Shown here one piece after another: positions 42,406-64,000 of a DNA stretch of 64,000 bases. Source of the DNA: Microvirga tunisiensis. Its GTDB lineage: Bacteria > Pseudomonadota > Alphaproteobacteria > Rhizobiales > Beijerinckiaceae. Where the stretch lies: NCBI RefSeq assembly GCF_009296175.1, contig NZ_VOSK01000003.1:1-64000 (forward strand). Direction: 5' to 3'. A program made the translations under genes and the position numbers. The number at the start of each line of letters is the position of its first letter. Position 1 is the stretch's first letter. The notes under the pieces are model-generated. The model was given only the letters and a program-made list of their open reading frames with translations. It was not told where the DNA came from and made no database searches.

Positions 42406-42419
42406 CTTTTTATCGATCC

Positions 42420-45400: not shown

Positions 45401-45525
45401 GAGTTCACACGACCGGCACGTCAGCCCGACCGACCGATCCTGCATGTCTCCTGTAGCGTAGGACTCGTCCTCTTGGGGATTCGCTTTATTCGATCACCTA
45501 GGATCCCGACGGCCCTGCAGACGCT

Positions 45526-46256: not shown

Positions 46257-46365
46257 TTACCGTCGCGAGAATTCTCGAACGGGAGAAATCATTTGTTCGA
46301 CGAAACTCTGGTAGGTCTCGATCATCGCCTGGATTCTTCATGACGCTCGTGGGAGCATAATGCGA

Positions 46366-46575
46366 GGTCAATCCCCGCGTATGCGGGGGAGACGGAATGC
46401 CAGCAATGACGCCCAGGTCCTTCATGGGGTAATCCCCGAGTAGGCAGGGGAGACGTACGGTTCTTACTTGCAGTCATGATCTGCAAGGGTTGATCCCGCG
46501 TATGCGGCGGATACTGCGAGGCGGCTTGGTACTTGTGATGATGCCCTGGCTGATCCCCGCGTGTGCGGGGGAGAC
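46366..46575 (-). CRISPR. Degenerate type I-E-like CRISPR array, 4 repeats / 3 spacers
   Basis: Four ~28-bp repeats at 46366-46393, 46427-46454, 46487-46514 and 46548-46575, with 32-33-bp unique spacers between them (periods 61, 60 and 61). The first and last repeats keep the palindromic core CCCCGC-GTATG-CGGGG (GTGTG in the last); the middle two are mutated (CCGAGTAGGCAGGGG; a lost C and CGGCGG). Read on the minus strand the repeat is GTCTCCCCCGCATACGCGGG and on, the usual type I-E orientation. The leader would then lie at ~46576-46640, which is AT-rich. No cas gene is present, so the array is an inactive orphan. Confidence 0.85.
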
Positions 46576-46904
46576 ACCGCAAAAAATTTCGCGAACCTAT
46601 GAAATATCAATGACTTAGAGACGCCTATAGGCATCTTGTGTAGCACCCCGCGTGGAGCATGCGGCAACGACGATCAGGTATCAGAACCTTGCCCCAGTCG
46701 CGGTAGCCCGCAAGGCTTTCATGCCCCTGTCACCCAGCGTGGGACGACCTTGTTTCGCCCTACAGATGAGGCTCAAGGACGCTTGGAGATGCAGCTCCTA
46801 AGCCCACAAGCGGCGAGATCGGGTAGAGAAGATCAGGCCAAGTTCACGGGCTAAAAAGAATCGCTACAATATAAATTTCCTTCGATCCACGAGAGCAAAT
46901 AAGC
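46576..46904. other. CRISPR leader side and gene-less sequence
   Basis: The first ~60 bases are AT-rich (CGCAAAAAATTTCGCG, a near-palindrome) and may be the old leader. The remainder up to the ankyrin gene holds no supported gene. Confidence 0.4.
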
Positions 46905-47447
46905 ATGTCGGTTTTACAAAAAGCAGTGGAGTCTGGCTGCATCTCGGAAGTCGAGAGAATCCTCGTCAATGGCGACCCTGAAGAACTCCGTCACGAGCTA
47001 CCGGGTGCCCTGACGTTCGCACTCGACGCCGGCTTTTCCACGATCTCGCGCCGACTGGCGAATGATCCAATCTTCGATCCGGGAGAGCAGGCCTGCCCCA
47101 ACTTGAGCAAGGCCGTGAGCCTCGGATACGTGGATGTCGCTCAATTTCTCATAGCTAAGGGCTCAAAGCTGAACCTGATCGTGGGCGGTTCGCGCAGCCC
47201 GCTCAGAATTGCACTGGAGAACGAGTATTTCGATCTAGCACGCTTCATGGTCGCCCATGGTGCAGAGATCTCCGTGCGTGACAGCAATGGGTGGACTGCT
47301 CTGATATGGGCCTCGATCACCGGTAATCGCGCCACTTACGACTTCCTGATCGAGCACGGTGCAGACATCCATATCTGCACCAACGACGGCTGGAACGCTC
47401 TCGCTGGCGCGTTCTTCAAGCGGTGGTGCACCTACCTGTATCCCTGA
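46905..47447 (+). CDS. Ankyrin-repeat protein, probably 3'-truncated
   Basis: A 180-residue protein of four to five ankyrin units. The clear ones are KAVSLGYVDVAQFLIAKGSK, SPLRIALENEYFDLARFMVA, NGWTALIWASITGNRATYDF then LIEHGADIHICTNDGWNALA. The last unit breaks off after GAFF with an unrelated KRWCTYLYP encoded by the overlap with the opposite gene's 3' end. Ankyrin proteins normally finish such a unit, so the gene was probably cut where the minus-strand block joins. Protein-protein interaction module; partner unknown. Confidence 0.75.
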   Translation: MSVLQKAVESGCISEVERILVNGDPEELRHELPGALTFALDAGFSTISRRLANDPIFDPGEQACPNLSKAVSLGYVDVAQFLIAKGSKLNLIVGGSRSPLRIALENEYFDLARFMVAHGAEISVRDSNGWTALIWASITGNRATYDFLIEHGADIHICTNDGWNALAGAFFKRWCTYLYP

Positions 47448-47916
47448 ACCCAAGGGCCATCACACGCTCCGTCGTTCCATCAGGCATCCTGAAAGAGAGC
47501 CACCAGCCATCATGCTCGACCACTATCGCGGAGACGGCGTCCTCTAGCCGGCACGGGATGAACTCGGACAGGCTGTCGGGACCTTCATGGGGAAGCTCGC
47601 GATCCTTGGCGACCATGACGGTGTCGCCCGGTTGGACGGTGTAGGTGCGGCGGTTCTTTTCGAACTCCCGCACGTTCAGGATCATCCTGCGGACGGCATC
47701 GCGGTCCTTGGTCGGGTACAGAGCCAGGTACGTCTCCAGATTCTCGAACGGCCGCTTACCGGCGACGGCCATGTCGTACATGCAGTTGTTGGTTTCATGA
47801 TCGAACTCTGCTCCAGGGCCCTCAGCGAGGAACTTGGTGTATCCGGCCATCGCCATTGCCTGGACCGAATCGTCGGCGTCCTCATCGTCGTGATGGCTGG
47901 CGTCGCCCTGCGTCAT
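47416..47916 (-). CDS. Unknown protein downstream of the Sel1-exonuclease gene
   Basis: A 166-residue protein. The N-terminus is very acidic (GDASHHDDEDADDSVQAMAM). The remainder has AEFDHETNNCMYDMAVAGKR, then KDRDAVRRMILNVREFEKNR, and a β-rich C-terminal part (TYTVQPGDTVMVAKDRELPH; AIVVEHDGWWLSFRMPDGTT). No family recognised. It starts 19 bases after the Sel1-exonuclease gene in the same direction, so it is probably the last gene of the BREX transcript. The frame extends to 48021 without a better start. Confidence 0.55.
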   Translation of the reverse strand: MTQGDASHHDDEDADDSVQAMAMAGYTKFLAEGPGAEFDHETNNCMYDMAVAGKRPFENLETYLALYPTKDRDAVRRMILNVREFEKNRRTYTVQPGDTVMVAKDRELPHEGPDSLSEFIPCRLEDAVSAIVVEHDGWWLSFRMPDGTTERVMALGFRDTGRCTTA

Positions 47917-47935
47917 GATGGCCCTCCTGACCGCA

Positions 47936-50293
47936 TCAACGAAAGACCCGAACAATCCGGTTCCACATCGACGGCGGCTCATCGCGGACCTGAGGCGCCG
48001 TGGGTGGCGGGACGGGATCACGGGGAGGCGGCGGCGTAGCCGGGGGCGCGGGAGTCTGCACAGGCGGTGGCATCGGCGCTGGCTGTACTGCCGGTATCCG
48101 GGGCGGCTCGGGTTGCCGAGGAGGATCGCGGAAGAGATCGATGGTGGCCGAACCTGTGGGTGTCTGGATACGGACGAAGATGTGCGCGGCGGTCATGGCA
48201 TCGGCCATGGCCCGGTGGAACGTGTCCGGCAGCTCCACGCCGAGGTGGATCGCCAGTTCACGCAGTTTGTAGCTTGGAAGGCCAGGGCAGGTACGACGTC
48301 CAAGCTGCAGCGTACAGAGGATGTCGCATTCGTCCCAGAGATCGAGGCGCTCCAGTTCGGCCTGGAGGAATTTCAGGTCGAAAGGTGCGTTATGGGCCAC
48401 GAGGGTCGCCCCTTCGATAAATGCGGCCAGCTCGCGCATGACCTGCTCCACCGGCGGCGCGGTACGCAGCATGGCATTCGTGATTGTTGTGATCTCGGTG
48501 ATCCTGGCGGAGATCGGAAAGCCTGGATTGGCCAGGCTCTGGTACTGGCGCCCAATGCGTCCGTCGATGACCTCGACAGCCCCGACCTCAATCACCCGGT
48601 CACCCCTTGCCGGCGACAGGCCCGAGGTTTCGAAGTCGAGCACCACGTAGCGCTTCCCTGTCACGCCGCCCTGGGTGTCAGCCGGAACGTGAACGGCAAC
48701 GGGCGGCGGAGGAGCCGGTGCAACGTTCGGCTCAGGGGGCGGGCGGGTAAGCTCATCAATCTTGCGGAGGGCATCCTCGTCTCCTGTCTCCGCCGCCTTG
48801 CGGAAGAACAGGAGCGCCTGATCTAAATCCGTAAGGGTGCCCCACCCGTTGAGGTGCATTGAACCCAGGTTGTATGCGGCAATGTCTGATCCATTGGCCA
48901 TAGCTCTGTTGAACCAATCCAGGGCTTCGGAATAATCCTGAGGCACGCCGTCTCCGTCCAGGTAGCAGCAGCCGATCATGTTCTGTGCGTCTGCATGGTC
49001 CTGTTCCGCCGCCGCCCGGAACCAACGGGCGGCCTCTCCCAAGTCTCGGGTCACGCCGTTCCCGTCCGCGTACATTGTGGCCACATGCCACTGCGCCTCG
49101 GCGTGGCCTTGGGTTGCGGCCTTGAGAAACCACGAGAAGGCGATGACGGAATTCGTGTCCGGGCTTTCCTCAGCGAGAATTTGGGCCAAGCGAAACTGCG
49201 CGTCCACGTGACCGGAAGCTGCCGCCAGGTTGTACCAGCGCAAGGCCTCGGCCGGATTGGGCTCCTCACCGTCCGCAGGGTCATAGTGCTCTGCAAGCCA
49301 CATGTGCAGCTTAGCCTGAGCCGCCTGGGCTGGGGCGTGTCCCCTGTCGACGGCGACCTGATACCACTTCGCCGCTTCTAACCCAGCCTCAAGGTCACCG
49401 TTCCAAATCCAGCAGCTCTCCAGGAAGTCGCCGAGAAGGTGAGCGGCTTCCGCGTGTCCGAGTTCGGCGGCAACCCTGAACCACCGCGCCGCTTCGTATC
49501 GATCCTCATCAACAATGTCGCCAGCATGGTACTGCATGCCTACGCGGTAGGCGGCATCGGCGCCCCCCAAGTGGAGCGCAGTCACGGTCCAGTCGATGAC
49601 CCGTGATGGGTAGTCGGTGTCATTGTCTTCAAACGCATCAATGGTCGCTTGCCCAAGGAGCATGCGGGCCTGTCGGTGTGCATGCCACCACTCAGCCCCG
49701 TCGGCGGTGCGGTTCTCCTCATCATAGATGTCGGAGATGGTCCACATAGCATCCAAATGTCCCTGGGCAGCTGCTGCGGTGAGCCAACAAATGCCTTTGT
49801 CGATCAGCTCCGATCCACGGCGGCCATCGCGCTTTTCGAATTTTATCTGGCGAAGCCCAAGCTGAAATTGGGCTTCAACATGCCCTCCCTTAGCGGCCAC
49901 CCTGAGCAAATGCGTGACCTCTTCCTTGGTCAGAACTCCCTCGTCGTCCGAGTCGAGGTGAAGGTACTGCACGACCTGAAAGGCCGCCTCAGGGTGCCCC
50001 TTTTGAGCCGCTTTGCGGTACCACCGCAACGCTTCTTCACCGTTTCTCTCAACGAACAGGCCGCTAGCCCACAAGGCACCGAAGCAGAATTGGGCCTCCT
50101 TGTGACCGAGTTCTGCCGCCTGGCGGAGAAGTGGCTCGATCACCATGAGCCTGTCTTCGACCTTGCCGATCTGCGGCGGCATTTCCTCATCGTCATCACC
50201 AGACCGAATCGGCGCCAAGGCAACGAAATTGAGGTCGCCGCAGACCTGCATCGCGTGCTCGTAGAAAATTGCCCCAGGCGCCCCACTCACCAT
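47936..50293 (-). CDS. Sel1-like repeat / DEDDh 3'-5' exonuclease fusion
   Basis: A 785-residue two-part protein. Residues ~50-515 are about 12 Sel1-like (TPR-related) repeats of ~36 residues, e.g. EALRWYRKAAQKGHPEAAFQ and EAARWFRAAAEQDHADAQNM. After a proline-rich linker, residues ~548-710 form a DnaQ/Pol III-epsilon-type exonuclease with all catalytic residues: D553 and E555 in VVLDFETSGL, D639 in AHNAPFD, and H693/D698 in HRAMAD. A ~45-residue Pro-rich tail follows. Nuclease activity on DNA or RNA 3' ends is expected; the repeats should bind a protein. It begins 101 bases after brxL on the same strand. Confidence 0.85.
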   Translation of the reverse strand: MVSGAPGAIFYEHAMQVCGDLNFVALAPIRSGDDDEEMPPQIGKVEDRLMVIEPLLRQAAELGHKEAQFCFGALWASGLFVERNGEEALRWYRKAAQKGHPEAAFQVVQYLHLDSDDEGVLTKEEVTHLLRVAAKGGHVEAQFQLGLRQIKFEKRDGRRGSELIDKGICWLTAAAAQGHLDAMWTISDIYDEENRTADGAEWWHAHRQARMLLGQATIDAFEDNDTDYPSRVIDWTVTALHLGGADAAYRVGMQYHAGDIVDEDRYEAARWFRVAAELGHAEAAHLLGDFLESCWIWNGDLEAGLEAAKWYQVAVDRGHAPAQAAQAKLHMWLAEHYDPADGEEPNPAEALRWYNLAAASGHVDAQFRLAQILAEESPDTNSVIAFSWFLKAATQGHAEAQWHVATMYADGNGVTRDLGEAARWFRAAAEQDHADAQNMIGCCYLDGDGVPQDYSEALDWFNRAMANGSDIAAYNLGSMHLNGWGTLTDLDQALLFFRKAAETGDEDALRKIDELTRPPPEPNVAPAPPPPVAVHVPADTQGGVTGKRYVVLDFETSGLSPARGDRVIEVGAVEVIDGRIGRQYQSLANPGFPISARITEITTITNAMLRTAPPVEQVMRELAAFIEGATLVAHNAPFDLKFLQAELERLDLWDECDILCTLQLGRRTCPGLPSYKLRELAIHLGVELPDTFHRAMADAMTAAHIFVRIQTPTGSATIDLFRDPPRQPEPPRIPAVQPAPMPPPVQTPAPPATPPPPRDPVPPPTAPQVRDEPPSMWNRIVRVFR

Positions 50294-50394
50294 TATGCGT
50301 GTGTCCTACTACCGCGTACCAGCACGTTCCGTCCGAAGTGCTGGCAGTGAGCCAGCATCATCGTCCTTTGAGCCTTCTGGGGCATTCCTGGCAT

Positions 50395-52437
50395 TCAGTT
50401 CAGGCCGAGGGCTTTGAACGCCGCCGTCTTGGGATCGCCGTAGAACACAGGATCTACGTGTTCGGCCACGTCCCCGGTGACCTCAAGGAAGCTCCGCTTG
50501 TTCTCAATCGGGATGAGGGCCCGCTTGCCGCCGTTATCCATCGCGACCTGGAGCGGCTCGACCAGAGAGCGCACGCCCTTGATGTTGCCCTGGAGGCTGA
50601 GGTCACCGAGCACCAGTGTCGCCGCAGCGACTGGAGCTTTTTTCAAGGCGGAAATGCAGGCGACGAAGAAGGCTACGCCGAGATCGGCATCGACCCGGTT
50701 TCCAATAAGGTCAATCACCTCAACGTGGAAGTCGGCCGTATCGACCTCACGTGCGATCCCCAGCTCCCCCTTCTTGGTCATGAGATAGCTGAAGGCACGA
50801 TTGATGGATTCCTTCATGGCCCCGGACACGCCACCTGCCAGCCGCAGCTTGGCGCCGCCCACGGAGGTTGAAACCTCGATGCGATACAGCCCGACGGTGC
50901 CATCCGACGCGACGCCCGCGCTGTAGACGCTCCCAGGGGAGAGCGGATCCGAGGAGATCATGTCGCGACCCCCTTGTTCCGGGACGCCGACAAATCGCTC
51001 CTCGCCGCTTTCCCGGTCCGTGTAGCTGAAGGACACCTGATAATATTCGAAGGAGCCCATCTTCTTGAGCTGCTCCTTGACACGCCTGCGGCCCTCCATC
51101 GCGAGCTCAAGGAGTTCAGCAACCTCCTCGCGGCTCGCATCGCCGTGTGGGTGGATGATCTTCATGAGACCGGAGACGGTTTTGTTCACCGCCTTGCGGT
51201 CGCGCGCGTTCAGGTGGGAGCCGAACGAGAAATGGCGCTCAGCCACTTCGGTGAAATTGTGCTTCCGCAGCTCCCTGAGGGCCTCGGCCAGATAGTCCAC
51301 GACAAAGCCGTAGTGGTTCGTGAACAGGTCCGCACGCATCTTCGGGATTTCCCAGCCAGGCAGGTAGAAGTGAAGTCGGTCAATGAACGCCATGTCGTCG
51401 CGGATGACACCCGGCATCGGCTCAAACAGGTGTCCGGTCTGGACCATCACCTCGACAGGCTGGTTGGTGTTGCCGAACATCGCGATGCTGGCGTCACCCG
51501 TGGCGGCCTCCTGGCCGCGCTGGAAGGTGCCGGATTCGCAGAAGGTCTTCATCGTGGTGACGACCTCCTTCGGCATCTTCTCAAGATCGGCCACTTCGTC
51601 GAAGCCAACAACATCCCAGATCTGCACCATGCCCTTCTGCCGTCCGCCCATGTGTCCAAACAGGTTGGCAACCGTGGTTGGGCCTGTAAGGAGCGAGGCG
51701 TAGGGAGAAACCTCCTGAATGACGTAGCTCTTGCCCGTGCCCCTGGGCCCGAGCTCCACCAGATTGTAGTTGCGCTCGACAAGCGGGATGAGCCTCATCA
51801 GGAACAGCAGCTTGAGGCGCCGGTCCATCGTCGCGGGCTCGTAGCCCATGCTGCGCAGAAGCAGGTCGATCCACTCCTCGGTGGTGAACTCGCGCCGAAC
51901 GGAGCGGTATTCCTCCAGATCAAATGCGGCGATCTGGATGGGTGTCAGCTTCTCGATCCAGAACGGATTCTTCCCACGGCTTTCCTCGTCGTAGGCGTAT
52001 TTGAGGTCGAGCTGCGCCCATACCCCGCCGGTGAGGAGACGCTCGTAGTTGCGGACGTACTCACTCGGGATGTGAAGGAACTTGTGTCCGAATTTGGAGG
52101 CCTCCGCCCAGTAGTCGGAATCGACCAGGCGAACTTTGACCTTGTCGATGAAGGTGTGCCTCCCATGCTCCTTGACCCGGCTCTGCGCCTTCTGGGACTC
52201 GTCATCCCGAATGTAGTTGTTGGCCAACGTGTCGTTGACGACTTGCAGACCCATCTGGATCGCCATCTCGTCCGAGGACGCGCAGTACTTGCCGAGGAGG
52301 AACTCCAGGACGAAGACCGGCACGTTCGCGCCGACCTTGACCTTCCTCACCAAATCCTTGCGGACGACCTTGCCGGCGAACAGCCGGTTGGCCTTGTTAT
52401 CGAGATCGTCGCGAACCGGTCCATCAAACGCATTCAT
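50395..52437 (-). CDS. brxL: BREX protein BrxL (AAA+ ATPase with Lon-like C-terminus)
   Basis: A 680-residue BrxL. The Walker A motif GPRGTGKS lies near residue 231, Walker B-like VVGFDEVADLEKMPKE near 276, and the C-terminal third resembles Lon protease (SINRAFSYLMTKKGELGIAR, LGVAFFVACISALKKAPVAA, GNIKGVRSLVEPLQVAMDNG). BrxL forms DNA-binding rings and is required for phage restriction in type 1 BREX. AGGAG precedes the ATG at 52437; a TTG 6 bases upstream overlaps the pglZ stop. Length equals that of characterised BrxL (~680). Confidence 0.95.
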   Translation of the reverse strand: MNAFDGPVRDDLDNKANRLFAGKVVRKDLVRKVKVGANVPVFVLEFLLGKYCASSDEMAIQMGLQVVNDTLANNYIRDDESQKAQSRVKEHGRHTFIDKVKVRLVDSDYWAEASKFGHKFLHIPSEYVRNYERLLTGGVWAQLDLKYAYDEESRGKNPFWIEKLTPIQIAAFDLEEYRSVRREFTTEEWIDLLLRSMGYEPATMDRRLKLLFLMRLIPLVERNYNLVELGPRGTGKSYVIQEVSPYASLLTGPTTVANLFGHMGGRQKGMVQIWDVVGFDEVADLEKMPKEVVTTMKTFCESGTFQRGQEAATGDASIAMFGNTNQPVEVMVQTGHLFEPMPGVIRDDMAFIDRLHFYLPGWEIPKMRADLFTNHYGFVVDYLAEALRELRKHNFTEVAERHFSFGSHLNARDRKAVNKTVSGLMKIIHPHGDASREEVAELLELAMEGRRRVKEQLKKMGSFEYYQVSFSYTDRESGEERFVGVPEQGGRDMISSDPLSPGSVYSAGVASDGTVGLYRIEVSTSVGGAKLRLAGGVSGAMKESINRAFSYLMTKKGELGIAREVDTADFHVEVIDLIGNRVDADLGVAFFVACISALKKAPVAAATLVLGDLSLQGNIKGVRSLVEPLQVAMDNGGKRALIPIENKRSFLEVTGDVAEHVDPVFYGDPKTAAFKALGLN

Positions 52438-52439
52438 AT

Positions 52440-54971
52440 TCAAACTCCTAAACGAACCGGGATTTCCTTCGACGAGTACAGGACCGCGTCGGTATCCCCG
52501 TCGAGGATCTGGATCCGGACCGACTTGGCGTCGTCATCCCGTAGCAGGAATCCGACCATGGCCGTCTTGCGGGGTTCCAGCCTGAGGGATCCGTCCGGCT
52601 CCTTTGGCGGGTCGCTCATGCCCATCAGGGCGACTTGGCGGTCACCGCTGACGACAGTGGGCCTGATGCTGCGGGCCGCGCTGAAGAGCGAGTTTCCGAG
52701 CTCGATCCGCACCGTGAACACCCGGTTCGTGATCACATCGTCATGGGCGACCTGCAGCGCGTTCTTCTCGTTGACCGCCGCGGCCTCCACCTGAAGCCGG
52801 ACGCCCAGCACGGGAACGATCATTTCCTGCAGGGACGGCCCGCCATGGTGGTAGGCGAGGTCGCCACCAGCCTTGAAGACCTTGGCCCCGAGAGGGAACA
52901 CGAAGTCGAGGTCGGAGGCGTAGCCCAGCCGTGCGGCGGAGACGCGAACGGTCCCGGGCGGCGTGGCCCCGCCGCGTCCCACCCAGCACCTTCGATGCAG
53001 ATCAACTGTCGCCCCGCCGGGGGCGTCGATGCGCATTGCCTCTGCCCGGTCCTGGCCGAAGAAGAGGTGGCCGTGGTCTGCGGTGATCACGGCATGCTCG
53101 ACACCCGCCGAGGCGAGGCGGCTCAGGCACCGTGCCAGGTCTTCAATGACCCCTCCCATAACCCGGCGGGCGAACGAGGATGCCCCTTCGCCGGCTTCGT
53201 CGATCTCCTGTGACCGGACGAAGATCACTTGGGCGTCACCGATCTTGGTCTTCAATGATTTGATGTTGCCTTGGAACACAGTGTCCAAGGTCAGGTCCAC
53301 TGAGGAGGGGAGCATCCCCTTGGCAAAGTTTTGCCTGGCCTTCAGGTCAGCCAAGAAGGTGCCATCGATCTCTGCGCCGAGTTTGCCGTTGCGCTCACCG
53401 ACCGAGAATGTCGACGACGCACCTGGTTGCAGAGCGGCCATCCCGATGGGCGTGATGCTCGGCAGGGCCCCGATAGCGGGGGTGACGGTCATCTCGGTGA
53501 CAAGTTTGGCGATCCGCTCGGACAGCTCCACGCCCATCTCGTACCGCAGGGCATCGACAAGGATGTAGGCGACGGGCTTTGGGCGCGGTGCGACAAGGTC
53601 AGCGAAGATACGAATTTGGGTCTGGCCGCCAGCGACCGACCACTCGTTCTTGTCGAGGGCCTTCACAAAACCCGAGGCCATGCGGTCGCACACGTCCTCG
53701 TAGGTTTGCCGTACGGTGACAAGCGCACGCTCATCAACGTGCTCTTCGCACGCTGCGATGATCGCCTCCAACTCGCGCTGGGCGCGGTCGAGGCGATGCC
53801 ATCCCTTCGGTTCAGTGTAGCGGCTGAACCAGATGGAAGGCGTCCCGTTTGCCTTGGCAAGGGTCGCCTCGACCTCCCCGGCGATGATCCCGAGGTCGAT
53901 CATGAACCGGCAAGCGCTCCAGACCAGGGTCCTGTCCTTGTCGCGATTGACCCAGTAGCTTGCCTGGCGCGCATCCAGGATGGCTCCAGCCTCGGAAAAG
54001 CGCCTGTCCGCTATCAGTTCGAAGCAACGCGCGATCACCAAGCGCTCCTCTGACCTGAACGTGTCGATGGAGCCCAAGGCATCGCCGGAGATTGGGAGCT
54101 TTTCGATGCCAAGTTCCGAGGCAGCCTGATCAGCCAAGGCTTCATAGGCATCTGGGGCTTCGACACGGAGGCGCCGTGCCACCTCTCGGATTGCATGCTC
54201 CTGGTCCCGGGTTGTCGGGGGCGTCAGGCCTGGCAGGCTGACGGATACCTCCTCGGTGTTGAGGTCGAGCATGAACTCGTTGCCGAGGACATGGCGGAGA
54301 GCGATGGAGCGCGCCTTGGGCAACGCCGTGTCTTCAGTGAACGAAAGTCCCAGGCGCACCTCGGCGAGTTTGCGCAACTCGGCTACGGCACCCTTCTCTT
54401 GGATGGCGACGTCAGTGGCGGAGTTGAGGATCCACCGGACCAGGATAGTGAGCGTGTCGGAGGTGTTGTCGAAGAGGCTGCGCAGGATTGAGGCATTCTC
54501 CCCGTTAGCACTCGCTTGAGCGATCTTTGCGAGATCGGCATAGGTGAGATTCTCCGACCTGAGGATCTCGTCGATCTCGACATCAGTGAAACGACGCTTC
54601 AGGACTGGCCGGGCCATGTGCTTGAGAGGGCGCTCGTAGACCAAGCCAGCTTTCTCAACCTCCATTAGAAGGGAGCCATGCTCATCCCGGGTGACACCTG
54701 GAAGATAAACGAGAACCTCATCGGGATCGTCGTTGCCGGCCGCCCGCTCTGCTGCCCATCGCACCTCTAGGTACGATCCCACATACTGCACGAGCTTCAC
54801 CAGGCGGCCGCCGATCCGCACACTTGAAAGACCGTAGTCCCGCGTCTCTCCAGCTCTTAGCTCATCGAAGAACCCCTCCATCTCGGAGCGGGGATCGTAA
54901 AAAATGATAACACTCCGCTCCTTGAGGCGGTCGGTGAGCTGGCCAGCAATATAGTCGTGAAGAGGATGCAT
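52440..54971 (-). CDS. pglZ: BREX phosphatase-like protein PglZ
   Basis: An 843-residue PglZ of the alkaline-phosphatase superfamily. The metal-site strands are visible at residues 471-479 (LVDALRYEM) and 630-637 (TADHGHLF), with SITPIGMAALQPGASSTFSV and a C-terminal HHGGPSLQEMIVPVL between and after them. The N-terminal ~450 residues are the BREX-specific helical part, starting LHDYIAGQLTDRLKERSVII. It is a core BREX component of unknown substrate. It sits 12 bases after the second pglX ORF and directly abuts brxL. Confidence 0.95.
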   Translation of the reverse strand: MHPLHDYIAGQLTDRLKERSVIIFYDPRSEMEGFFDELRAGETRDYGLSSVRIGGRLVKLVQYVGSYLEVRWAAERAAGNDDPDEVLVYLPGVTRDEHGSLLMEVEKAGLVYERPLKHMARPVLKRRFTDVEIDEILRSENLTYADLAKIAQASANGENASILRSLFDNTSDTLTILVRWILNSATDVAIQEKGAVAELRKLAEVRLGLSFTEDTALPKARSIALRHVLGNEFMLDLNTEEVSVSLPGLTPPTTRDQEHAIREVARRLRVEAPDAYEALADQAASELGIEKLPISGDALGSIDTFRSEERLVIARCFELIADRRFSEAGAILDARQASYWVNRDKDRTLVWSACRFMIDLGIIAGEVEATLAKANGTPSIWFSRYTEPKGWHRLDRAQRELEAIIAACEEHVDERALVTVRQTYEDVCDRMASGFVKALDKNEWSVAGGQTQIRIFADLVAPRPKPVAYILVDALRYEMGVELSERIAKLVTEMTVTPAIGALPSITPIGMAALQPGASSTFSVGERNGKLGAEIDGTFLADLKARQNFAKGMLPSSVDLTLDTVFQGNIKSLKTKIGDAQVIFVRSQEIDEAGEGASSFARRVMGGVIEDLARCLSRLASAGVEHAVITADHGHLFFGQDRAEAMRIDAPGGATVDLHRRCWVGRGGATPPGTVRVSAARLGYASDLDFVFPLGAKVFKAGGDLAYHHGGPSLQEMIVPVLGVRLQVEAAAVNEKNALQVAHDDVITNRVFTVRIELGNSLFSAARSIRPTVVSGDRQVALMGMSDPPKEPDGSLRLEPRKTAMVGFLLRDDDAKSVRIQILDGDTDAVLYSSKEIPVRLGV

Positions 54972-54983
54972 GACGTTATCCGG

Positions 54984-57119
54984 TTATACCTTCCGACGGC
55001 CGCGCCGCGTGCCACCCGCTGGTTCTGACGCGCTGAGGAGATCCTTTAGCGCAGCCTTGACTGCGTCTGACGTGCGCTCGCCGACGAGTTCGCTGACTGG
55101 GTGGGTAGGAGTTTTACGAGGCTTCCATTTACCGGATTCGTCTTCAAACCAGAAGACATCCTCTAGCTCATGAGCAATGGCCAAGCTTCGGTCAGTGACG
55201 CACTTCGGCACAACCCGTTCGGGCCAAAGATGCATCGCCAAGTGCGACCAATCGAAATCACCGCGCTGAAGTGCCTCCCATGCAGTCCTAAGCTCCTTCT
55301 GCCAGGGCTTGTTATGAGCAACCAAGCGCCAGAGAGGCGCGGAGTTAATGATAACCCCGTCGTCAAGGTCAGGATTCCAGAGTGGAGCAACTCGCTTCAG
55401 TTCATTGAAGAAGATTTGGATTTCCTCGACGAAAGCGACTTGCGCGTCGATGGCCTTACGTTGAGTCGCTGACGGGCTACTTCCTGCATCTGACTTCAGC
55501 GCATCAAGTTGCCTTTGCTCGTGCGCAAGCTTAGGCGCAACATAGTCATTTTGTACTCGGAACAGCGTATCTTTAGTGAACTTGTGGATGTAAAGCCATA
55601 CGGCATAGCTTCCCGAAGCTGTCCCGAGACGCCAGTAGATTGGCGCTTTGCGACGACTCTTAGAATACATTTTGATATGAGCAGGGAAGGCCTGCCGGCG
55701 CAGCCAAGCGCGATAGACTTCGGGCATGAACAAGCCCGACGATGTTTCCCCAAACCGCAAGGTCCAGGTATCTGCGCCACCCACATATGAAATCTTTGTT
55801 GTTTCAAAGATGGATGCGACGATAGAAGTTACATCATCTGGATGGCCAGGGTCTTCAACGAGGATGCCGTTGTTGACATGAAACATCGGGTCGCCCTTAG
55901 GCAACATTCCAGGACTCACTACTGGCAAAGGGGAAAACGGTCCCGGCTCGGATGGAAGTTCGCGATCTCCAGTAGCGAGACGGAGATCAAACCGACCGAA
56001 GGCGACACCGAGCGCCCAAGAATGCACCGAGCCAACAGCGTCAGTGTTCGTCTCTTCATCATCGTCCTCAGCGTCCGAATCCGGCTCCGAAGAGCCATCT
56101 TCTTCAGAGGTTTCGGCAATCTCATCCTTGCCTTTACTTGCCCATATCTCGATCTCAGCGCGATCTTGACCCTCAAGACCATAGAGCCTGAAGGCGAGGT
56201 CATCTATTTCTGTCTGAATAGAACCGATTTCGGCCTCGATCTGAACCGCGTCAACTCCTGTGCGCAGTGTTAACAACGGACCTGGCAAGACAAATGCGCT
56301 TGATGCCTCATTCGCGGTATCAAGGTTCCGCTTTAGCGACCAGGCGCGACGAGCCAGCGTAGCAAGTGCAGTTCGATCATTCGGCGATAGCTCGGGAACC
56401 GGGGTTCGTTGAATAACACCAACTTCATAGGCGCCAAACGCCATCTGCAAGGAGATGAAGTATTTAAATGGCGCGGAGTTCATGATCGCCAACATTGCCT
56501 CAAGCGCGACATCAGAGTCGTCATCTAGAAACAATGTTGGTCCTTTATGCCCGAATATCCCGCCTTGTCCGAACGCGCGAGCGCTGAAGCCAGTTTGAGA
56601 GCGTACTGGCCAAGATATTCCAGGGCGGCCATAATAGTCATAGCCATTGAGTACAGCCGTCCACTGCTCCCCCCAGCCCTTTGACGCGCGCCACGCACTT
56701 GCCGCCGCCTTTAGCTCGCGACCTTCGCCTGGCCACCGCACCACCAAATGTACGTTGGCATAGAAAGGATTGTGCTTTCCGCCCTTCGTCAAAAGAACCC
56801 ATGCAGATGCACGATCCTTTGACGCACCGAACTGGACAATATTGTCGGGGTTGATTTCCCATGCCAGTCTTAGGAAACGTGGATTATCTCTTGTGTTTGC
56901 CCCTGCAGCGGCATGCCTCTCCTCCGACTCCAACGACGGATAGCTAGAGGTGCATCTCATGACCGCGGCACTTGCCCAATATGCGAAAGGGCTTCCAGAA
57001 ATCTGGCTGAATTTCGAGGCGTCCACGATGTGAACCCCTCTTCGACCGGAGCACGATTCGGACAGGCTGATAGCCTTCTGATCGGTCGGTTCATCAAGTA
57101 AGCGGATAAATATCGTCAT
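54984..57119 (-). CDS. pglX: PglX C-terminal half (target-recognition part), separate ORF
   Basis: A 711-residue continuation of PglX without methyltransferase motifs. It begins TIFIRLLDEPTDQKAISLSE and carries GSPFAYWASAAV, RPGISWPVRSQTGFSARAFG then GGIFGHKGPTLF, and AFGAYEVGVIQRTPVPELSP, the usual C-terminal specificity region of PglX. Residues ~332-360 are an acidic linker (EEDGSSEPDSDAEDDDEETN). Its ATG overlaps the stop of the upstream half by one base (TGATG, 57121-57117), allowing termination-reinitiation; a GTG at 57122 is also possible. Either a natural split into two subunits or a single-base frameshift. Confidence 0.85.
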   Translation of the reverse strand: MTIFIRLLDEPTDQKAISLSESCSGRRGVHIVDASKFSQISGSPFAYWASAAVMRCTSSYPSLESEERHAAAGANTRDNPRFLRLAWEINPDNIVQFGASKDRASAWVLLTKGGKHNPFYANVHLVVRWPGEGRELKAAASAWRASKGWGEQWTAVLNGYDYYGRPGISWPVRSQTGFSARAFGQGGIFGHKGPTLFLDDDSDVALEAMLAIMNSAPFKYFISLQMAFGAYEVGVIQRTPVPELSPNDRTALATLARRAWSLKRNLDTANEASSAFVLPGPLLTLRTGVDAVQIEAEIGSIQTEIDDLAFRLYGLEGQDRAEIEIWASKGKDEIAETSEEDGSSEPDSDAEDDDEETNTDAVGSVHSWALGVAFGRFDLRLATGDRELPSEPGPFSPLPVVSPGMLPKGDPMFHVNNGILVEDPGHPDDVTSIVASIFETTKISYVGGADTWTLRFGETSSGLFMPEVYRAWLRRQAFPAHIKMYSKSRRKAPIYWRLGTASGSYAVWLYIHKFTKDTLFRVQNDYVAPKLAHEQRQLDALKSDAGSSPSATQRKAIDAQVAFVEEIQIFFNELKRVAPLWNPDLDDGVIINSAPLWRLVAHNKPWQKELRTAWEALQRGDFDWSHLAMHLWPERVVPKCVTDRSLAIAHELEDVFWFEDESGKWKPRKTPTHPVSELVGERTSDAVKAALKDLLSASEPAGGTRRGRRKV

Positions 57120-59215
57120 CACACCACCTCAAGGCAGTAGGCGGCAGTCTCAACCATCGCCCCGTCGAGAACTCCCATACCCAAGTCGGCAACTACGACA
57201 GGACGGGCCTCTTTGAGTAAGATTTCCTCTCGCCACTTCTTGAAGGTTGAGAGAAATAGGCCTGTCCGTGATGTGATGGCGCCAAGGCGAGCGCGGCTGT
57301 TTAGTAGGCTAACGCCACGTTCAATGAACGCGGCATAAACATCGTTCTTAGTGCGAGGGTACTGCCTCTCGAAGACTGGCTTCGCTACAGATGATCCTGC
57401 TCCGAAGGGGGGATTCATAAGAATCACTTCAAAGCGCTTATTAACAAGATCTACTAGCGCAAACCCCTGGGCTGCATCCTCCACGAAGAGACGTCGCCGA
57501 GCCGCCCGCCCGTTTGTGGCTGAGGAGGCGTAATCTGATAAAGCACAAAAAACGAGCCTCTCCGCTTTTGTCCAAAAATCATCGCCGCCGCCAGGAAGCA
57601 CACGAGCGAGTTTCCCGAGCTTTACGTCGGAGATGCCAAATTCGGCTACTCTAAACAGAGGTAGCCGGTCATCCCATTCCGCACGCCCTTTCTCGATGGC
57701 TCGTGTCAGATCCTGCTCAATCCTCAGAAGTGTTCCCATTTCTCCAGCAAGCTTCATGCCTTCCCAGACGGTCTCGATAAGCTCAGCCAGCGTCTCGGCC
57801 ATAGCTTTGGTTGCCCTAACAGTCTGTTCAGGAGGGATCGCTAAGGCCTTGCGGAGAAGTTCTTCGAGCCGGTCTTCCTTAAGCCCCCGAACAAATTCTG
57901 CAAAAAGGTCCTTCTCACCTGGCATAGGCTCAGCAATCACGATGTTCGAGCGCCTGATCTTTGAGCGCTCCGCACGCGGGACAGAAAAGTCCTTAAAAGC
58001 GCGTTGGGCACGCATCCAGAGCGCCAATTGCGCAATCTGAGCACAGCGGGGGTCGATATCTACACCGTGTAGATTGTGTTTCAGGATCAGCCCAGGAAGC
58101 GCACGCCTGAGTTCCTCCAAGGTTGCGTATTCCTCCCGGAGCGTTTTTCCGGTCTCATCAAATGCGGGAGAATTGGCATCCTCCCAAGCCTCTTCGTAAA
58201 TGATGAGGAATAGGTCGAATAACCCAAGCAAAAAGTGCCCTGATCCGCAGGCAGGGTCGAGGCCCCGCATCGAGCGGGGGTCCTTTTTCGGGCGGAAGGG
58301 AACCCGGACGGGGCGGTGCCACGATTCCTCATACGATAGACCATCCGGTACTACATCGAATGAGACCTCCTCGTTCATCTCAGCGAAGGTCTCTCCGGGC
58401 AACCGGACCATGTACTCACATACGTCCTTTAGGCGCGTGTTGCCCTGGCGCATTTCATACCAAATGCGCCCAAGTGTGTTATCCCCGAGGAACCGTACAA
58501 CGTAGTTTGGCGTGAAAAATTGGTTGCGGACCGCAAGCTCGCGCGAATTCTGGGGCGGCTTAGGTTTGCCCTTTTCGTCATAGCGAGCGCGCCGGACATC
58601 CTCCCGGGAATTAAAGTACTGATAAATCCACCCAATGGTCTCATCTTCGCCCCACACGCCGTTGAGATCGGCAGCGTTGAGGACTTCGAGAAGCGTATCG
58701 AATGCCAGCTTCCTTGGCCAAAGAAGTGATGCTGGATCCCGTCTGTCGAAGAGCACCTTAATCTCAGTTGAGAGCTCGTCGAAGATGCATTCAAAAAATA
58801 GACGGTAGCCCTCGCTGTCGGCCAGAAGGCGTAGACTAGGGGCCGCTCCAATGAATTCGACGTACCCGTTCGACTGGTCACCCCGCGTGATACATTCACG
58901 GACGAGTTCGCGAGCCTCCAGCATCTTGAGCGCTGCAAATCGGTTAAGCGTCGTGAAAGCAGCGTCACGGATATAATCCTGGACTGCCTCGGATGGCTTC
59001 ATGCCGACAGCACGTTTGTGCTCAATGGCTGCCACTATACGGTCACGGATAGCCACTTGCGACTTGCTAAGGTGGGCTCCTCCCTTAGGTGCAATCTCAC
59101 CAGAAGCCATAATGTCGAAGGTAGCGGAAAGCTGCTCCTCAAAGTCACTCGTCAGGATAGAGCGCGCCTTTTGGGTTGCATTCTGCAGAGAGTTGCGGGT
59201 TTCCTTGTCCATCAT
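57119..59215 (-). CDS. pglX: PglX N-terminal half (N6-adenine methyltransferase)
   Basis: A 698-residue protein holding all methyltransferase motifs of BREX PglX: the SAM-binding LDPACGSGHF (319-328), LHGVDIDPRCAQIAQLAL (from 382), and the catalytic NPPF (601-604) in RFEVILMNPPFGAGS, an accepted NPP(Y/F) variant. QFFTPNYVVRFLGDNTLGRI precedes motif I as in γ-class enzymes. It ends VETAAYCLEVV exactly where intact PglX proteins continue. It modifies host DNA to mark self in BREX. The start overlaps the brxC stop (ATGA). Confidence 0.92.
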   Translation of the reverse strand: MMDKETRNSLQNATQKARSILTSDFEEQLSATFDIMASGEIAPKGGAHLSKSQVAIRDRIVAAIEHKRAVGMKPSEAVQDYIRDAAFTTLNRFAALKMLEARELVRECITRGDQSNGYVEFIGAAPSLRLLADSEGYRLFFECIFDELSTEIKVLFDRRDPASLLWPRKLAFDTLLEVLNAADLNGVWGEDETIGWIYQYFNSREDVRRARYDEKGKPKPPQNSRELAVRNQFFTPNYVVRFLGDNTLGRIWYEMRQGNTRLKDVCEYMVRLPGETFAEMNEEVSFDVVPDGLSYEESWHRPVRVPFRPKKDPRSMRGLDPACGSGHFLLGLFDLFLIIYEEAWEDANSPAFDETGKTLREEYATLEELRRALPGLILKHNLHGVDIDPRCAQIAQLALWMRAQRAFKDFSVPRAERSKIRRSNIVIAEPMPGEKDLFAEFVRGLKEDRLEELLRKALAIPPEQTVRATKAMAETLAELIETVWEGMKLAGEMGTLLRIEQDLTRAIEKGRAEWDDRLPLFRVAEFGISDVKLGKLARVLPGGGDDFWTKAERLVFCALSDYASSATNGRAARRRLFVEDAAQGFALVDLVNKRFEVILMNPPFGAGSSVAKPVFERQYPRTKNDVYAAFIERGVSLLNSRARLGAITSRTGLFLSTFKKWREEILLKEARPVVVADLGMGVLDGAMVETAAYCLEVV

Positions 59216-62200
59216 GCCCCCCAGGTCGCGAAGACCTTCTTGCCGGCCCCGATGAGGCGGGCGACCTCGTCTCGCAAGCCAGCCAGTGTCTGATCGAGTT
59301 GCTCTTCTGTTTCGATGCCACCTTGGAAGAAGTCCGCCACACGGACAGTTGCCAAGCGTTCACCTTCGAGCAGTTCGTGGATCTTGGTTACCACGGTACG
59401 CAGGCGCCCCTCGCAAGCCTCTCGCTCGGAGCGGAGATGGTGGATGGTCTGGTTGTTGTAGTTCCTATCTGCGCACCGGCGGAGAGGCTCCGCGAGCACA
59501 TCCTGTTGGGCAGGGGAGATCTTTGCCCACTCGGGCAGCTTGGACAGCCGCTCCAAGGCATCGGTATAGGCCGCCACCCGCGCATTCAATGCCTCGGCGT
59601 AGCGCCGGTCGTAGTCACCTTGGAGAGACGCGGCGGCCTCCTCAATGCGGTGGAGCTCGCGGTAGAAGGTTTCCCGCTCAAGAAAGTCGGACAGCAGATC
59701 GCCCTTGGTGCGCATCTCGTCTGAGAGGTCGGCTTCCTCTCTCAGGACCGGCCAAAGCTTTCCGCTGACCTCCCGAGCTTTCGCCAGCATCGCGAGCGTC
59801 CCAACATCCAGTGCTTTATCAAGCTCGCCGGCGCGCTGGAGGGCCTCCTTGATCGCGGTATGCGCGGCGTTGAAATCGAGAATCGCCCTCTCGTCGGATC
59901 CACGTCGCACCGCTTTCATCTGGTCCGCGGCGCGCTCGATCAAATCTCGGCCCGGCAAGCCGGCGGTGCGCATCGTGCCGAGGACACCGCTTACGTTATC
60001 CTCGCAGCGCTCAACAGCGGTCCGGATCTCTGCAGCGACTTTCGGGGCGTTGAGCTCGGGGATCTCCTGGCCAAACGTGAGCCGGTAGTTCTCGGCCGCG
60101 TTGACGATCTCCTCGAAGTCGACGCCCTTCTTGGGTCTGAACGTGGCGCCGCGGAAGAGCATGTTGTTTGAGAAGACCTCCTTGGCCTGGACGCTCGTGG
60201 CGGTCTCGATGCTTTGGCCCCGGCTCAGACCCTCGATCACGCCAGCCCGCAGGAGGCAGAGAGTGAACAGGCGTATCGCATCGAAGTCCCACCCGAACGG
60301 CGCCTGTTGGAACTTGTCCTCCAAGAACCTGCCAGGCGCGGGATCCCCGTAATTCGCACGCTGCTCGATTTGCCCCATCACCTCCGAAAGGGGGGCGACG
60401 TCGGTCTTGAAGGTGATCCTGCCGCCCTCGTCTCGGAGCAGTCCCAGAGCGGAGAAGACAGGCGGCAGCCCGTTGAGGTTCTCGGCCGTCAGAAGGGCGT
60501 CAGTTCCCTTCATGAGGTCAGTCTTCTTGGCCGCGGCTTCGTCAAACCGGGCGTATACGTCCGGCAGGATGTTCTCCATGATCTTTGAGGCGGCCTTAGC
60601 GACATCGCTGGTGCGGTCGTCGGGGCTCCGGTCGTTGCCACGGAAGAAGGCCGAACCGGCAAGAGAGGCAGCCTTGATGTAGCCTCGCAGGGTGTCTGTA
60701 TGGCGGTTGAGGCGGGCCTTCTCCTCGACAAGAAGATTGCTCTCATCGACCGTACTGGCCGTCCGGCCCCGTCGCTCGACCATTTGGGCGGAGCGGTAGG
60801 CTTCCCGGAGTTCACGCCGTATCTCTTGCGTCAGGGTAATCACCCAGAAGACGCTGGCGGTCTCTGTCTGGCTGCGGGTGCGGGCCTCCGCAATGAGCTG
60901 TGGTGACTCGGCGGCATCTCCGGCGACCTTCATATGGAAGGTCACGTCCCCCTTCATGGCCTCCTTGCCGTCCACCATCAGTCCGGCCTTAAAGGGCTTG
61001 ATGTCGCTCAGGCTGAACGTCGGTCCCGTCCCCCAGAGTTTCGTAAGAGCTTCGAGGATGAGCTTGTTCTCGGCTGCACGGTTCGGGTCGATGCCGGCGC
61101 GCATCTGCTCCCAGTCATCCTCTGCCGGAGTCGGGATCCGGTAGCCGTCATCGCCAACCCGGATCACCAGGGCCTTTTCAAGCGCCTCCAAGGCCTCCTT
61201 CACGGCGGCAAGCTGACTGTCGCCATCGACGGAAGGATGGAGGGCTGCTGCGATGTTCTCTGCGCTGCGGTGGACGCTCTTCACGAACTGCAGGAGGCAG
61301 ATGACCTTGGCGACGGATTGCGCCAGCGGCGCGTTCGGCACCCGATCTTTGACGGAGCTGATCTTCGCCCTGACCTCCGAGGCGATGTTCCCCTCAACGA
61401 GATCATAGACTTCATCAAGCGTGACCAGCGATCCAACCGGCCGCGAGGCAATCTGCGTCGCCGGATTGATGAGGAGCTGCTGCGCAAGCTTGATGATAGT
61501 CCGGTTGGCGCCGCCCACATGCTTGCTCGCACCTCCTTGGGTACGAAGACCTGATACAATCTGGATAATCAGATCAATCTGGTACGGAAGCAGCGGGTAG
61601 AGATCCACGAACCGCTGACGGGTCAATTCCGGCAGGGTGATGTCGGCGCTGAGCTTCGTGGCCTGCGCAAACCGTCCACGATGATCGTCGAACAGCTTAC
61701 CCAGCGTCGTTTCCGCCCCGGCGTTCTTCGCCAGGACGCGGCGGCTGGTCACCTCTGAGATGTCAGAAGGTTCCAGATGGACCTGCAGGTCCATCGGGAA
61801 ACGGTCCATCAGGCGGGCAAGCTCGATCCGGTTGTCGTCGAGGCCGCTGACGAGCTCGTTCAGCTTCTCCTGGGAGGTGACCGCAATCCAATGCTTTCCG
61901 CGCCCACGAACACCGAGCTGTTGGACGATGGCCTGCAGGTCGAGCATCTTCTGGATGTCGCGGGCAACGAACTGGCCGACCTCGTCCACGACGAACAGCA
62001 GAGAATGCCCGGGCTTGCGGCGTTCCATGAGTTCGACGACCCGCCTGGCGAACAGCCCAGGGGTGATGTCCGCCTTGGACCTGGTGCGGGCCCAGGTGTC
62101 CGGAGCGGGATAAGTCGTCGGCTCCATCGCGTGGAGGGCGGCGCTCGCCCTGTTGATGGCGAAGGCGAGCATGGACTTTTCAGCGTTCCAAGCCTGCCCA

Positions 62201-62763
62201 CGCGTCTTGAGGTACGTCTCCTCGAATTCCTTGAGCCGCCCCTGCGACTCCAGGTCAATCTCAAGCTCGGCCAAATCCAGGTCCCGGGCGTAGCCGAGGC
62301 TCTCCAGGAAGAGCCGGTACATGATCTCGGTGAGCATCTGGTTGCCCGACCGGATGCCACGGTCCGTGGAGACATCGAAGATGACAGCGTGGGTGGGGAT
62401 CTTCTCGTTGATGGTCTTGAGGACCACCTTGAGCCGGTTATCCCTAACGCGCTGGGCAAACCGGTCGGCCGCCTTCACGCCGACGACCTCGCGGTTCTCG
62501 ATGGCCAAGCCGAGGTTCTTGGCGAAGCTGGACTTACCCGAGCCGAAGAAGCCGGAGATCCAGATCGCCACACCCTCCGTCGGCTTGCGCGACGCCTCCT
62601 GGTAGCGCTCCAGGATATCGACATAGTGCCGCTGGATGGCGTCGGTAACGATGTATTCATCGATTTCCGAGCGCAGCACATCGCCGTCGACCTGGTCGAC
62701 CTTGATGACTTCCTCGATTTTCCGGGTGATGTCGCTCGCGAAAAGTGTGCCGATAGTGGTCAT
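59212..62763 (-). CDS. brxC: BREX ATPase BrxC
   Basis: An 1183-residue BrxC (PglY-like). Walker A GFFGSGKSS is at residues 71-79 and Walker B LLFVVDE at 255-261, within an ORC/AAA-like ATPase domain. The remaining ~850 residues are the large helical BREX-specific body. The start at 62763 (MTTIGTLFASDITRKIEEVI) matches the family N-terminus, so the additional 29 codons open upstream are not coding. It lies 16 bases after brxB and overlaps pglX by 4 bases. It is an essential core component of BREX restriction. Confidence 0.95.
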   Translation of the reverse strand: MTTIGTLFASDITRKIEEVIKVDQVDGDVLRSEIDEYIVTDAIQRHYVDILERYQEASRKPTEGVAIWISGFFGSGKSSFAKNLGLAIENREVVGVKAADRFAQRVRDNRLKVVLKTINEKIPTHAVIFDVSTDRGIRSGNQMLTEIMYRLFLESLGYARDLDLAELEIDLESQGRLKEFEETYLKTRGQAWNAEKSMLAFAINRASAALHAMEPTTYPAPDTWARTRSKADITPGLFARRVVELMERRKPGHSLLFVVDEVGQFVARDIQKMLDLQAIVQQLGVRGRGKHWIAVTSQEKLNELVSGLDDNRIELARLMDRFPMDLQVHLEPSDISEVTSRRVLAKNAGAETTLGKLFDDHRGRFAQATKLSADITLPELTRQRFVDLYPLLPYQIDLIIQIVSGLRTQGGASKHVGGANRTIIKLAQQLLINPATQIASRPVGSLVTLDEVYDLVEGNIASEVRAKISSVKDRVPNAPLAQSVAKVICLLQFVKSVHRSAENIAAALHPSVDGDSQLAAVKEALEALEKALVIRVGDDGYRIPTPAEDDWEQMRAGIDPNRAAENKLILEALTKLWGTGPTFSLSDIKPFKAGLMVDGKEAMKGDVTFHMKVAGDAAESPQLIAEARTRSQTETASVFWVITLTQEIRRELREAYRSAQMVERRGRTASTVDESNLLVEEKARLNRHTDTLRGYIKAASLAGSAFFRGNDRSPDDRTSDVAKAASKIMENILPDVYARFDEAAAKKTDLMKGTDALLTAENLNGLPPVFSALGLLRDEGGRITFKTDVAPLSEVMGQIEQRANYGDPAPGRFLEDKFQQAPFGWDFDAIRLFTLCLLRAGVIEGLSRGQSIETATSVQAKEVFSNNMLFRGATFRPKKGVDFEEIVNAAENYRLTFGQEIPELNAPKVAAEIRTAVERCEDNVSGVLGTMRTAGLPGRDLIERAADQMKAVRRGSDERAILDFNAAHTAIKEALQRAGELDKALDVGTLAMLAKAREVSGKLWPVLREEADLSDEMRTKGDLLSDFLERETFYRELHRIEEAAASLQGDYDRRYAEALNARVAAYTDALERLSKLPEWAKISPAQQDVLAEPLRRCADRNYNNQTIHHLRSEREACEGRLRTVVTKIHELLEGERLATVRVADFFQGGIETEEQLDQTLAGLRDEVARLIGAGKKVFATWGA

Positions 62764-62779
62764 GGCGTCGGTTGTCCGT

Positions 62780-63355
62780 TCAAAAGATCTTGGGGCGATA
62801 GTTGTGCTCGGGCTGCATGACCCCCATGAAGCGGAGGCCGGCGGCGCCATCGAGGTCGCCCGGATAGAAAAGCACGGTGGGGACCGTCACTCGGCCCTTG
62901 AGCTGCTCAAGGAGAGAGAAGGTCCGGTAGACGGGAAACAGGGAGCCGGTCCTCGTGATAAACACAACATCCGTGAGTGGGTCAGGATCGGCGGGCATGC
63001 GCTCCGCAACGAGATCGACGAGAGGGCGAATGTCGCTAAGCACATTCGCCATGGTCTGGACCGTCTCTTCCAGGCCAACATCCTTTTCGATCTGGAACCA
63101 CTCTTCCAGGGGGGCCTGGGACTGAAGAGCCTCCGTGAGGCATTCCGAGAGGTAGATGCGCGTCAGTCGCTTGCCTTTGTTTTGAAGACGCGTGGCAAGC
63201 AGCGACACAGCCTTGCGCAGGGCGAACTCCTCGTCGGGATCATATCTGAAGATCGCGTACGGCATGTCGTGGTAGGCGCTGAGCTGTTGCCGCGGATCTC
63301 GCGCTTCGAGGATTGGCTGGAGGGTGCGCTCCAGGCGCTCGGTGAACTTGCTCAT
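62780..63355 (-). CDS. brxB: BREX protein BrxB (DUF1788)
   Basis: A 191-residue BrxB: SKFTERLERTLQPILEARDP, then MPYAIFRYDPDEEFALRKAV, LTRIYLSECLTEAL, and the conserved end VVFITRTGSLFPVYRTFSLL with VPTVLFYPGDLDGAAGLRFM. This is the DUF1788 pattern, including the PG..dg..L.f......YR tail. Its start overlaps the brxA stop (ATGA), indicating coupling. Biochemical role unknown; required for defence in several BREX-1 systems. Confidence 0.95.
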   Translation of the reverse strand: MSKFTERLERTLQPILEARDPRQQLSAYHDMPYAIFRYDPDEEFALRKAVSLLATRLQNKGKRLTRIYLSECLTEALQSQAPLEEWFQIEKDVGLEETVQTMANVLSDIRPLVDLVAERMPADPDPLTDVVFITRTGSLFPVYRTFSLLEQLKGRVTVPTVLFYPGDLDGAAGLRFMGVMQPEHNYRPKIF

Positions 63356-64000
63356 GCTGCCATCGCCTTTGCGTATTCGGAGGCGCTGCCATAGGGCAGC
63401 GTGAGTTGCACCAAGCTGCCCGCCACTTGGTAGTCGAGGCGCCGGTACTGATGCAGGCGCAGGAGTGTCGCGTGCACGTCACTTGGCGACATGAAGGCCG
63501 AGCGCCAGTACACGCTGTCGACCACCCGCGAAGGCGTTCCTTCCAAGTCGGCGATCATATGGACGTGAAAGATCATCGCGTCGTCGCTCATGACGGGTGT
63601 GCGATATGCCTTCACGGCTGAGGAGCCGGTAAGGAGGCCGAGGTCGCCAGCGGTCTTGAGTAGATCACGCGCGGTTCTCATCACTCCATATTCGCTCAAG
63701 GCGGGCTTGCCTGCCTCGGTCCAGGCCGCCGTAACGAATGGACGGACATCCTCCGACCGAACGTGCTGACGTCCCTTTTCCCTCTCAGGATCGAGCCAGT
63801 CGAAGACGAAGGACCGGAACGGATCCTCGGTTGCAGTGATCCACAAGCGGAGGCAATCCCGCCAGTCATGGAAAGGCATGCTCCCCTGGGCGAGAAAGAT
63901 AAGCGGCTTCATCCTCTCGATGTGGCGCAAGCGGGCACCAACCGTGGTCCGGACCTCCTTCTCCCATCCAACCGTGTTGAAGTTTCCGCCGAGAAGCCGA
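63352..64000 (-). CDS. brxA: BREX protein BrxA (DUF1819), 5' end outside the window
   Basis: The last 215 residues of BrxA. The frame stays open through the window edge (…GGNFNTVGWEKEVRTTVGAR), and no good start lies inside, so the gene is partial. Visible segments include DWRDCLRLWITATEDPFRSF, VRPFVTAAWTEAG, LKTAGDLGLLTGSSAVKAYR and a winged-helix-like end. BrxA is a small DNA-binding-type protein and the usual first gene of type 1 BREX. The operon promoter is therefore not in this window. Confidence 0.88.
   Translation of the reverse strand, partial: RLLGGNFNTVGWEKEVRTTVGARLRHIERMKPLIFLAQGSMPFHDWRDCLRLWITATEDPFRSFVFDWLDPEREKGRQHVRSEDVRPFVTAAWTEAGKPALSEYGVMRTARDLLKTAGDLGLLTGSSAVKAYRTPVMSDDAMIFHVHMIADLEGTPSRVVDSVYWRSAFMSPSDVHATLLRLHQYRRLDYQVAGSLVQLTLPYGSASEYAKAMAA

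Follow-up and report, generated by a model that had tools for sequence, protein, structure and literature searches.

Nucleases of several classes have been described beside BREX systems, among them HNH/GmrSD, HKD, PD-(D/E)XK, TOPRIM/OLD, HEPN, PIN and Schlafen proteins in a 2026 survey of BREX diversity (PMC12839542). In the auxiliary cases which the survey presents, a nuclease gene adjoins the BREX core (PMC12839542). The same arrangement is found in the window, i.e., the 64,000-nt stretch of Microvirga tunisiensis DNA analysed here, where a gene that joins Sel1 repeats to a DEDDh exonuclease follows a BREX operon of the order brxA-brxB-brxC-pglX (two genes)-pglZ-brxL on the minus strand (Table 1). 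The main text of the survey contains no mention of exonuclease, DEDD or Sel1 (PMC12839542), and our literature search found no paper linking Sel1 to a DEDDh exonuclease in defence, to BREX together with an exonuclease, or to an antiphage effector nuclease.

On the side of the enzyme, the DnaQ/epsilon, PolC and DinG-exo group (RNase_T) has the whole domain and the catalytic residues in common with the window protein. However, these enzymes are replication or repair proteins or stand alone, while the window exonuclease is partnered with a Sel1 solenoid. The exonuclease domain also matches the PADLOC model PDC-S48 (138.7 bits), but membership in PDC-S48 was rejected as the match covers model positions 4-200 of 411 alone, which is the exonuclease part only.

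Table 1. Positions of the fusion gene, the parts of its protein, the surrounding BREX genes and the AM1 homologue.
Feature	Position	Strand	Remarks
Sel1-repeat/DEDDh exonuclease (predicted 3'-5') fusion gene	47936..50293	minus	785 aa; ATG start, frame open for 785 codons
Sel1-type solenoid of fusion protein	residues ~41-516		
Pro-rich linker of fusion protein	residues 517-545		
Exonuclease part of fusion protein	residues 547-712		
Tail of fusion protein			Pro-rich, low-complexity; closing amphipathic peptide at residues 775-785
ORF directly after fusion gene	47416..47916	minus	166 aa; AGGAGG ahead, a good ribosome site
Gap between brxL and fusion gene	50294..50394	minus	101 nt; GC-rich hairpin, no U-run
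brxL	50395..52443	minus	
pglZ	52440..54971	minus	
pglX, C-terminal half	54984..57122	minus	separate gene; by model position the target-recognition part
pglX, N-terminal (methyltransferase) half	57119..59215	minus	separate gene
brxC	59212..62850	minus	
brxB	62780..63355	minus	
brxA as read in the window	63352..63930	minus	full ORF 254 aa, to L055:4117 past the window end
AM1 megaplasmid fusion ORF	NC_012811.1 ~1027264-1029594	minus	without annotation in the record copy examined

The original prediction of an intact DnaQ-type exonuclease holds. RNase_T matches residues 550-706 of the fusion protein over model positions 1-164 of 164 (117 bits, E 1.5e-33; Pfam), and D553, E555, D639, H693 and D698, which we take to be the catalytic set of the DEDDh family, are present at the positions named beforehand. 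All five are identical in the homologue on the megaplasmid of Methylorubrum extorquens AM1, a laboratory strain. By its full domain and D-E-D-H-D residues the protein is a DEDDh (DnaQ-like) exonuclease with predicted 3'-5' activity. The nearest solved sequence to this part is the PolC-type 2p1j (E 1.3e-25, residues 548-709), and its general type is PolC/epsilon.

The N-terminal part is a Sel1-repeat region in which several repeats lie above the Pfam cut-off (Sel1 163.7 bits, E 4.2e-49; cut-off 30.7). About 12 Sel1-like repeats had been predicted. A single-sequence structure model places ~12 helix pairs across residues 41-516 and thereby agrees with that number at low confidence (mean pLDDT 52.9; good at residues ~380-516, unusable for the exonuclease part), while Pfam supports fewer repeats, with 6 stretches passing alone. 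The nearest solved sequences to the repeat part are the Sel1 proteins 6ok3 and 4bwr.

Among 72,556 plasmid records, the AM1 megaplasmid alone covers at least 80% of the fusion protein. The AM1 homologue has 41.7% identity to the window protein over 812 columns and the same Sel1 and DEDDh layout. As it spans nearly the whole length, the 785-aa fusion is not a chance ORF. Identity is 67.1% (112/167) in the exonuclease, 54.6% in repeats 51-190 and 38.1% in repeats 261-515; this higher similarity of the exonuclease fits a conserved enzyme combined with a changing binding surface. Both proteins have a Pro-rich tail whose final peptide is aromatic/basic, but the AM1 homologue has a shorter linker and lies directly upstream of GmrSD. 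The last 11 residues of the window protein rank 1 of 775 peptide windows by helical moment, which was noticed after the fact and serves as a lead only. The last two such windows of the AM1 protein rank 49-59 of 767 and contain proline. In the fusions, a basic amphipathic terminal peptide may be tethered by a low-complexity stretch and may serve as a docking motif.

A third fusion, of 804 aa, was found in genome G942, one of 328 genomes of the family. It is divergent: the N-terminal part differs and the repeats are weaker. The exonuclease is of the same kind as in the window, with E in place of the second catalytic D. Its amphipathic windows are N-terminal, where the first three rank 3-10 of 794 by helical moment.

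Beyond these three, the fused form was found nowhere in the samples searched. The genome sets overlap, include the centre genome and mostly had few candidates scored per genome, and distant or split fusions may have been missed. Among the matches listed for 101 genomes of relatives there was no other fusion. In the 48 genomes of the genus the fused form is present in the window's own genome alone at the thresholds used, and in the 328 genomes of the family in G942 and the window's own alone. The fused form is almost absent from the genus and family samples, and it is therefore not a conserved chromosomal gene there. The wider sets yielded no further fusion either: 397 genomes of the order (two-sequence profile, E <= 1e-50), 385 genomes of the class (six further matches, all repeat-only), 170 genomes of the phylum (exonuclease-only matches in 31 further genomes) and 165 relatives of G942 searched with the G942 protein. 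A scan of a genome contig collection gave a single relative, unfused. No phage record covers 80% of the fusion protein. A viral origin was rejected after three viral-contig scans, using few peptide patterns each, had returned no fusion; one repeat-only match is located close to the end of a 4-kb contig that has no match to the exonuclease.

A joined Sel1 part was sought at exonuclease-matched loci (26 + 32, partly shared, and 4 plasmid loci) and was found only in G942; at one further locus (L128) a Sel1 gene lies ~5 kb from the exonuclease as a separate ORF. Seven phylum exonuclease matches (frames of 207-296 aa) and, among the matches listed for the 101 relatives, those in G072, G079, G093 and G100 (frames of 457-492 aa) stood outside this check. 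At 31 loci with a Sel1-only match there was no exonuclease match.

Each of the three fusions found has different defence or mobile neighbours, BREX being that of the window. In AM1, a GmrSD restriction gene lies 35 nt downstream on the same strand, and the other neighbours are PDC-S26 at 1.0 kb, an Abi_C/AbiJ-like gene at 2.2 kb, a PD-(D/E)XK gene at 2.4 kb, a UvrD-type gene at 5.0 kb and a DndD/PbeC-like gene at 10 kb, with an IS110-type transposase on the far side of the locus. The PADLOC matches of the UvrD/PD-(D/E)XK pair are to generic helicase parts, and we assume that the pair may be AddAB-like repair genes. Three AM1 neighbour ORFs, including the nearest divergent one, have no family match. 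The G942 fusion has integrase genes on both sides, and its surroundings also include the C-terminal piece of a type I restriction protein and regulators of the AlpA-like and HTH kinds. As both other fusions lie beside defence or mobile genes, the window gene is probably a movable extra defence gene and not a fixed part of the operon. The fused form lies next to defence or mobile genes in 3/3 cases found, and with n = 3 any link between them is tentative. At a confidence just short of even, we favour the reading that its product is a rare auxiliary protein of defence islands, probably spread by horizontal transfer, and not a fixed BREX part. In the same setting, a stand-alone nuclease effector, which the original prediction had offered as one option, is plausible on these three cases.

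As an auxiliary defence protein, the fusion would use its Sel1 solenoid as the binding part, with a phage protein, a host protein or a partner nuclease as possible ligand. The bound solenoid would then direct or gate the exonuclease as effector, a division of tasks that fits the stronger conservation of the enzyme. The exonuclease would remove nucleotides from the 3' ends of invader DNA (or RNA), and possible substrates are the ends or nicks that an adjacent nuclease such as PglZ, GmrSD or HsdR produces. By its closing amphipathic peptide on a low-complexity linker, the protein might dock to the membrane or to a partner. DEDDh enzymes act on DNA or RNA. The many other tasks of Sel1 proteins and the E in place of the second catalytic D in G942 count against this reading. 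In its most specific form, this proposal would make Sel1-DEDDh an undescribed exchangeable effector that recruits an exonuclease to an adjacent DNA-cutting system (BREX with PglZ, GmrSD or type I restriction), docks by its tethered amphipathic end peptide and finishes invader DNA from the resulting ends; in full, this is speculative and we consider it unlikely. If the protein is defensive, the nucleases known as companions of BREX and type IV restriction would gain an exonuclease class, and one protein would move between unrelated defence systems.

The surroundings can also be explained without a defence function. The fusion gene could be a cargo of mobile DNA that serves the upkeep of the element (replication, repair, transfer or regulation through RNA turnover) and is found in defence islands as mobile DNA collects there. 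The three cases indeed lie on a RepC-type contig, on a megaplasmid and between integrase genes, and the general PolC/epsilon character of the exonuclease suits such a role. However, the tight pairing with GmrSD in AM1 and the placement right after brxL in the window speak against it, and we regard cargo as the less probable explanation, if the strongest rival to an auxiliary defence protein.

The position of the gene raises the question of whether it belongs to BREX itself. In 397 genomes of the order, 13 carry brxL at E <= 1e-60, the window's own included. The stretch beyond the brxL match was 6.1-8.6 kb in 11 loci (of which the brxL end takes up to ~0.7 kb) and ~16 kb in the nearest BREX relative, G278, whose brxL, brxC and brxB are 79%, 59% and 64% identical to those of the window. 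When the window fusion and its AM1 homologue were compared with these stretches at E <= 1e-4, 0/12 of the other brxL loci gave a match, not even to the exonuclease. In G278, the next large ORF past brxL has the opposite orientation and is matched by models of UvrD-type helicases. The fusion gene is therefore not a conserved BREX component in this order sample, and with no recurrence beside BREX we reject it as a component by general rule. Enrichment next to brxL, by which the proposed role as BREX accessory was to be judged, was thus not found.

The arrangement would still be compatible with a true accessory, transcribed together with brxL, whose substrate is DNA that BREX has halted or cut. 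As predicted, the gene lies on the same strand as BREX, 101 bases after brxL. A scan of the gap listed neither a terminator-like site nor a promoter site, and its hairpin does not clearly outperform shuffled sequences in folding (z -1.61 and -1.48). Co-transcription with brxL is possible, as the gap settles neither linkage nor separation of the transcripts. Auxiliary nucleases beside BREX are moreover a described theme in the survey (PMC12839542). On the other hand, the fusion gene is missing even from the stretch of the nearest relative, and a search with the window BREX proteins (E <= 1e-5) gave no match in the 42-kb AM1 locus. We consider a true BREX accessory doubtful, with a chance of roughly one in six.

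The unfused relatives offer a comparison for the defence setting. In the other 10 family genomes matched, the exonuclease frames are 204-324 aa long and no Sel1 part is joined to them. In the exonuclease tree, the window exonuclease pairs with that of AM1 (98/92), and the sister group of this pair (96/83) consists of nine unfused exonucleases from one genus of the same family. A single origin of all three fusions is neither shown nor rejected (p-AU 0.44). A recent copy of the genome's own exonucleases finds no support in the tree, where the five other own copies are represented by L001, L004 and L005. The branches of L004 and L005 are long; L003 was left out for its short length, and L006 yielded no row. 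L132, L133 and L136-L139 are not in the tree, the last four being repeats of loci already there.

The ORFs near the unfused genes encode EAL, hydrolase, dihydrodipicolinate synthase, solute-binding and HSP90 (twice) proteins, and the remaining ones MaoC/Pta, PAS/histidine-kinase, one Nmad3 and one protein without family. Most of these ten ORFs, which lie near five unfused relatives, are thus ordinary, in a thinner check than for the fusions (two ORFs each at 5/10 genes by Pfam only, compared with a wider scan by Pfam and PADLOC). Defence or mobile surroundings therefore seem to go with the fused form, although the numbers are small and the scan of the unfused ones was thinner. If the gene stood beside BREX by chance and served the host in a way unconnected with defence or mobility, e.g., in repair, this would agree with the unfused sister group and the mostly household genes sampled near it, but the near absence of the fused form from the genus and family samples makes such a role improbable.

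Directly after the fusion gene, the 166-aa ORF is a possible operon partner. It has no PADLOC match, and neither the plasmid collection nor the loci compared contained a homologue of it; a conserved operon of the two genes was rejected on this ground. An ankyrin-repeat protein of 180 aa (46905-47447, plus) converges on the 166-aa ORF. Further along, two adjacent RepC-like replication initiator genes lie at 41029-44108 on the minus strand, and the window contig is therefore probably plasmid-derived, which favours an auxiliary protein that moves horizontally. The PLSDB typing of the AM1 megaplasmid as non-mobilizable counts against it. Four degenerate CRISPR-like repeats of ~25 nt with 60-61-nt spacing (46370-46576) lie in the interval that separates the RepC-like genes from the fusion gene; Rfam at the gathering threshold matched nothing over 45000-64000, these repeats included.

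Within the BREX operon, the pglX halves (54984-59215, minus) overlap by 1-4 nt with the methyltransferase half first, the same order as in HsdM/HsdS. In G278 pglX is one gene (L069:9503-13495), and in G362 it is also split (L078:2507-6297). GC3 is 0.55-0.59 in both halves, compared with 0.76-0.81 in brxL, pglZ and brxC, which suggests a swapped module. In the region from 63352 to beyond 64000, the start of brxA is overlapped by a 186-aa ORF (L055:4114-4674) whose match to BrxE is weak (20.6 bits). PglZ scores best with a BREX type 6 NCBIfam model, below its cut-off, and brxL passes BrxL models. Judged from the BrxE-like ORF and these model scores, the operon may be an intermediate of BREX types 1 and 6. 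Finally, the same contig holds two weak matches to the uracil-DNA-glycosylase superfamily, both under the Pfam cut-off, at 38501-39190 and, outside the window, at L055:6500-7279.
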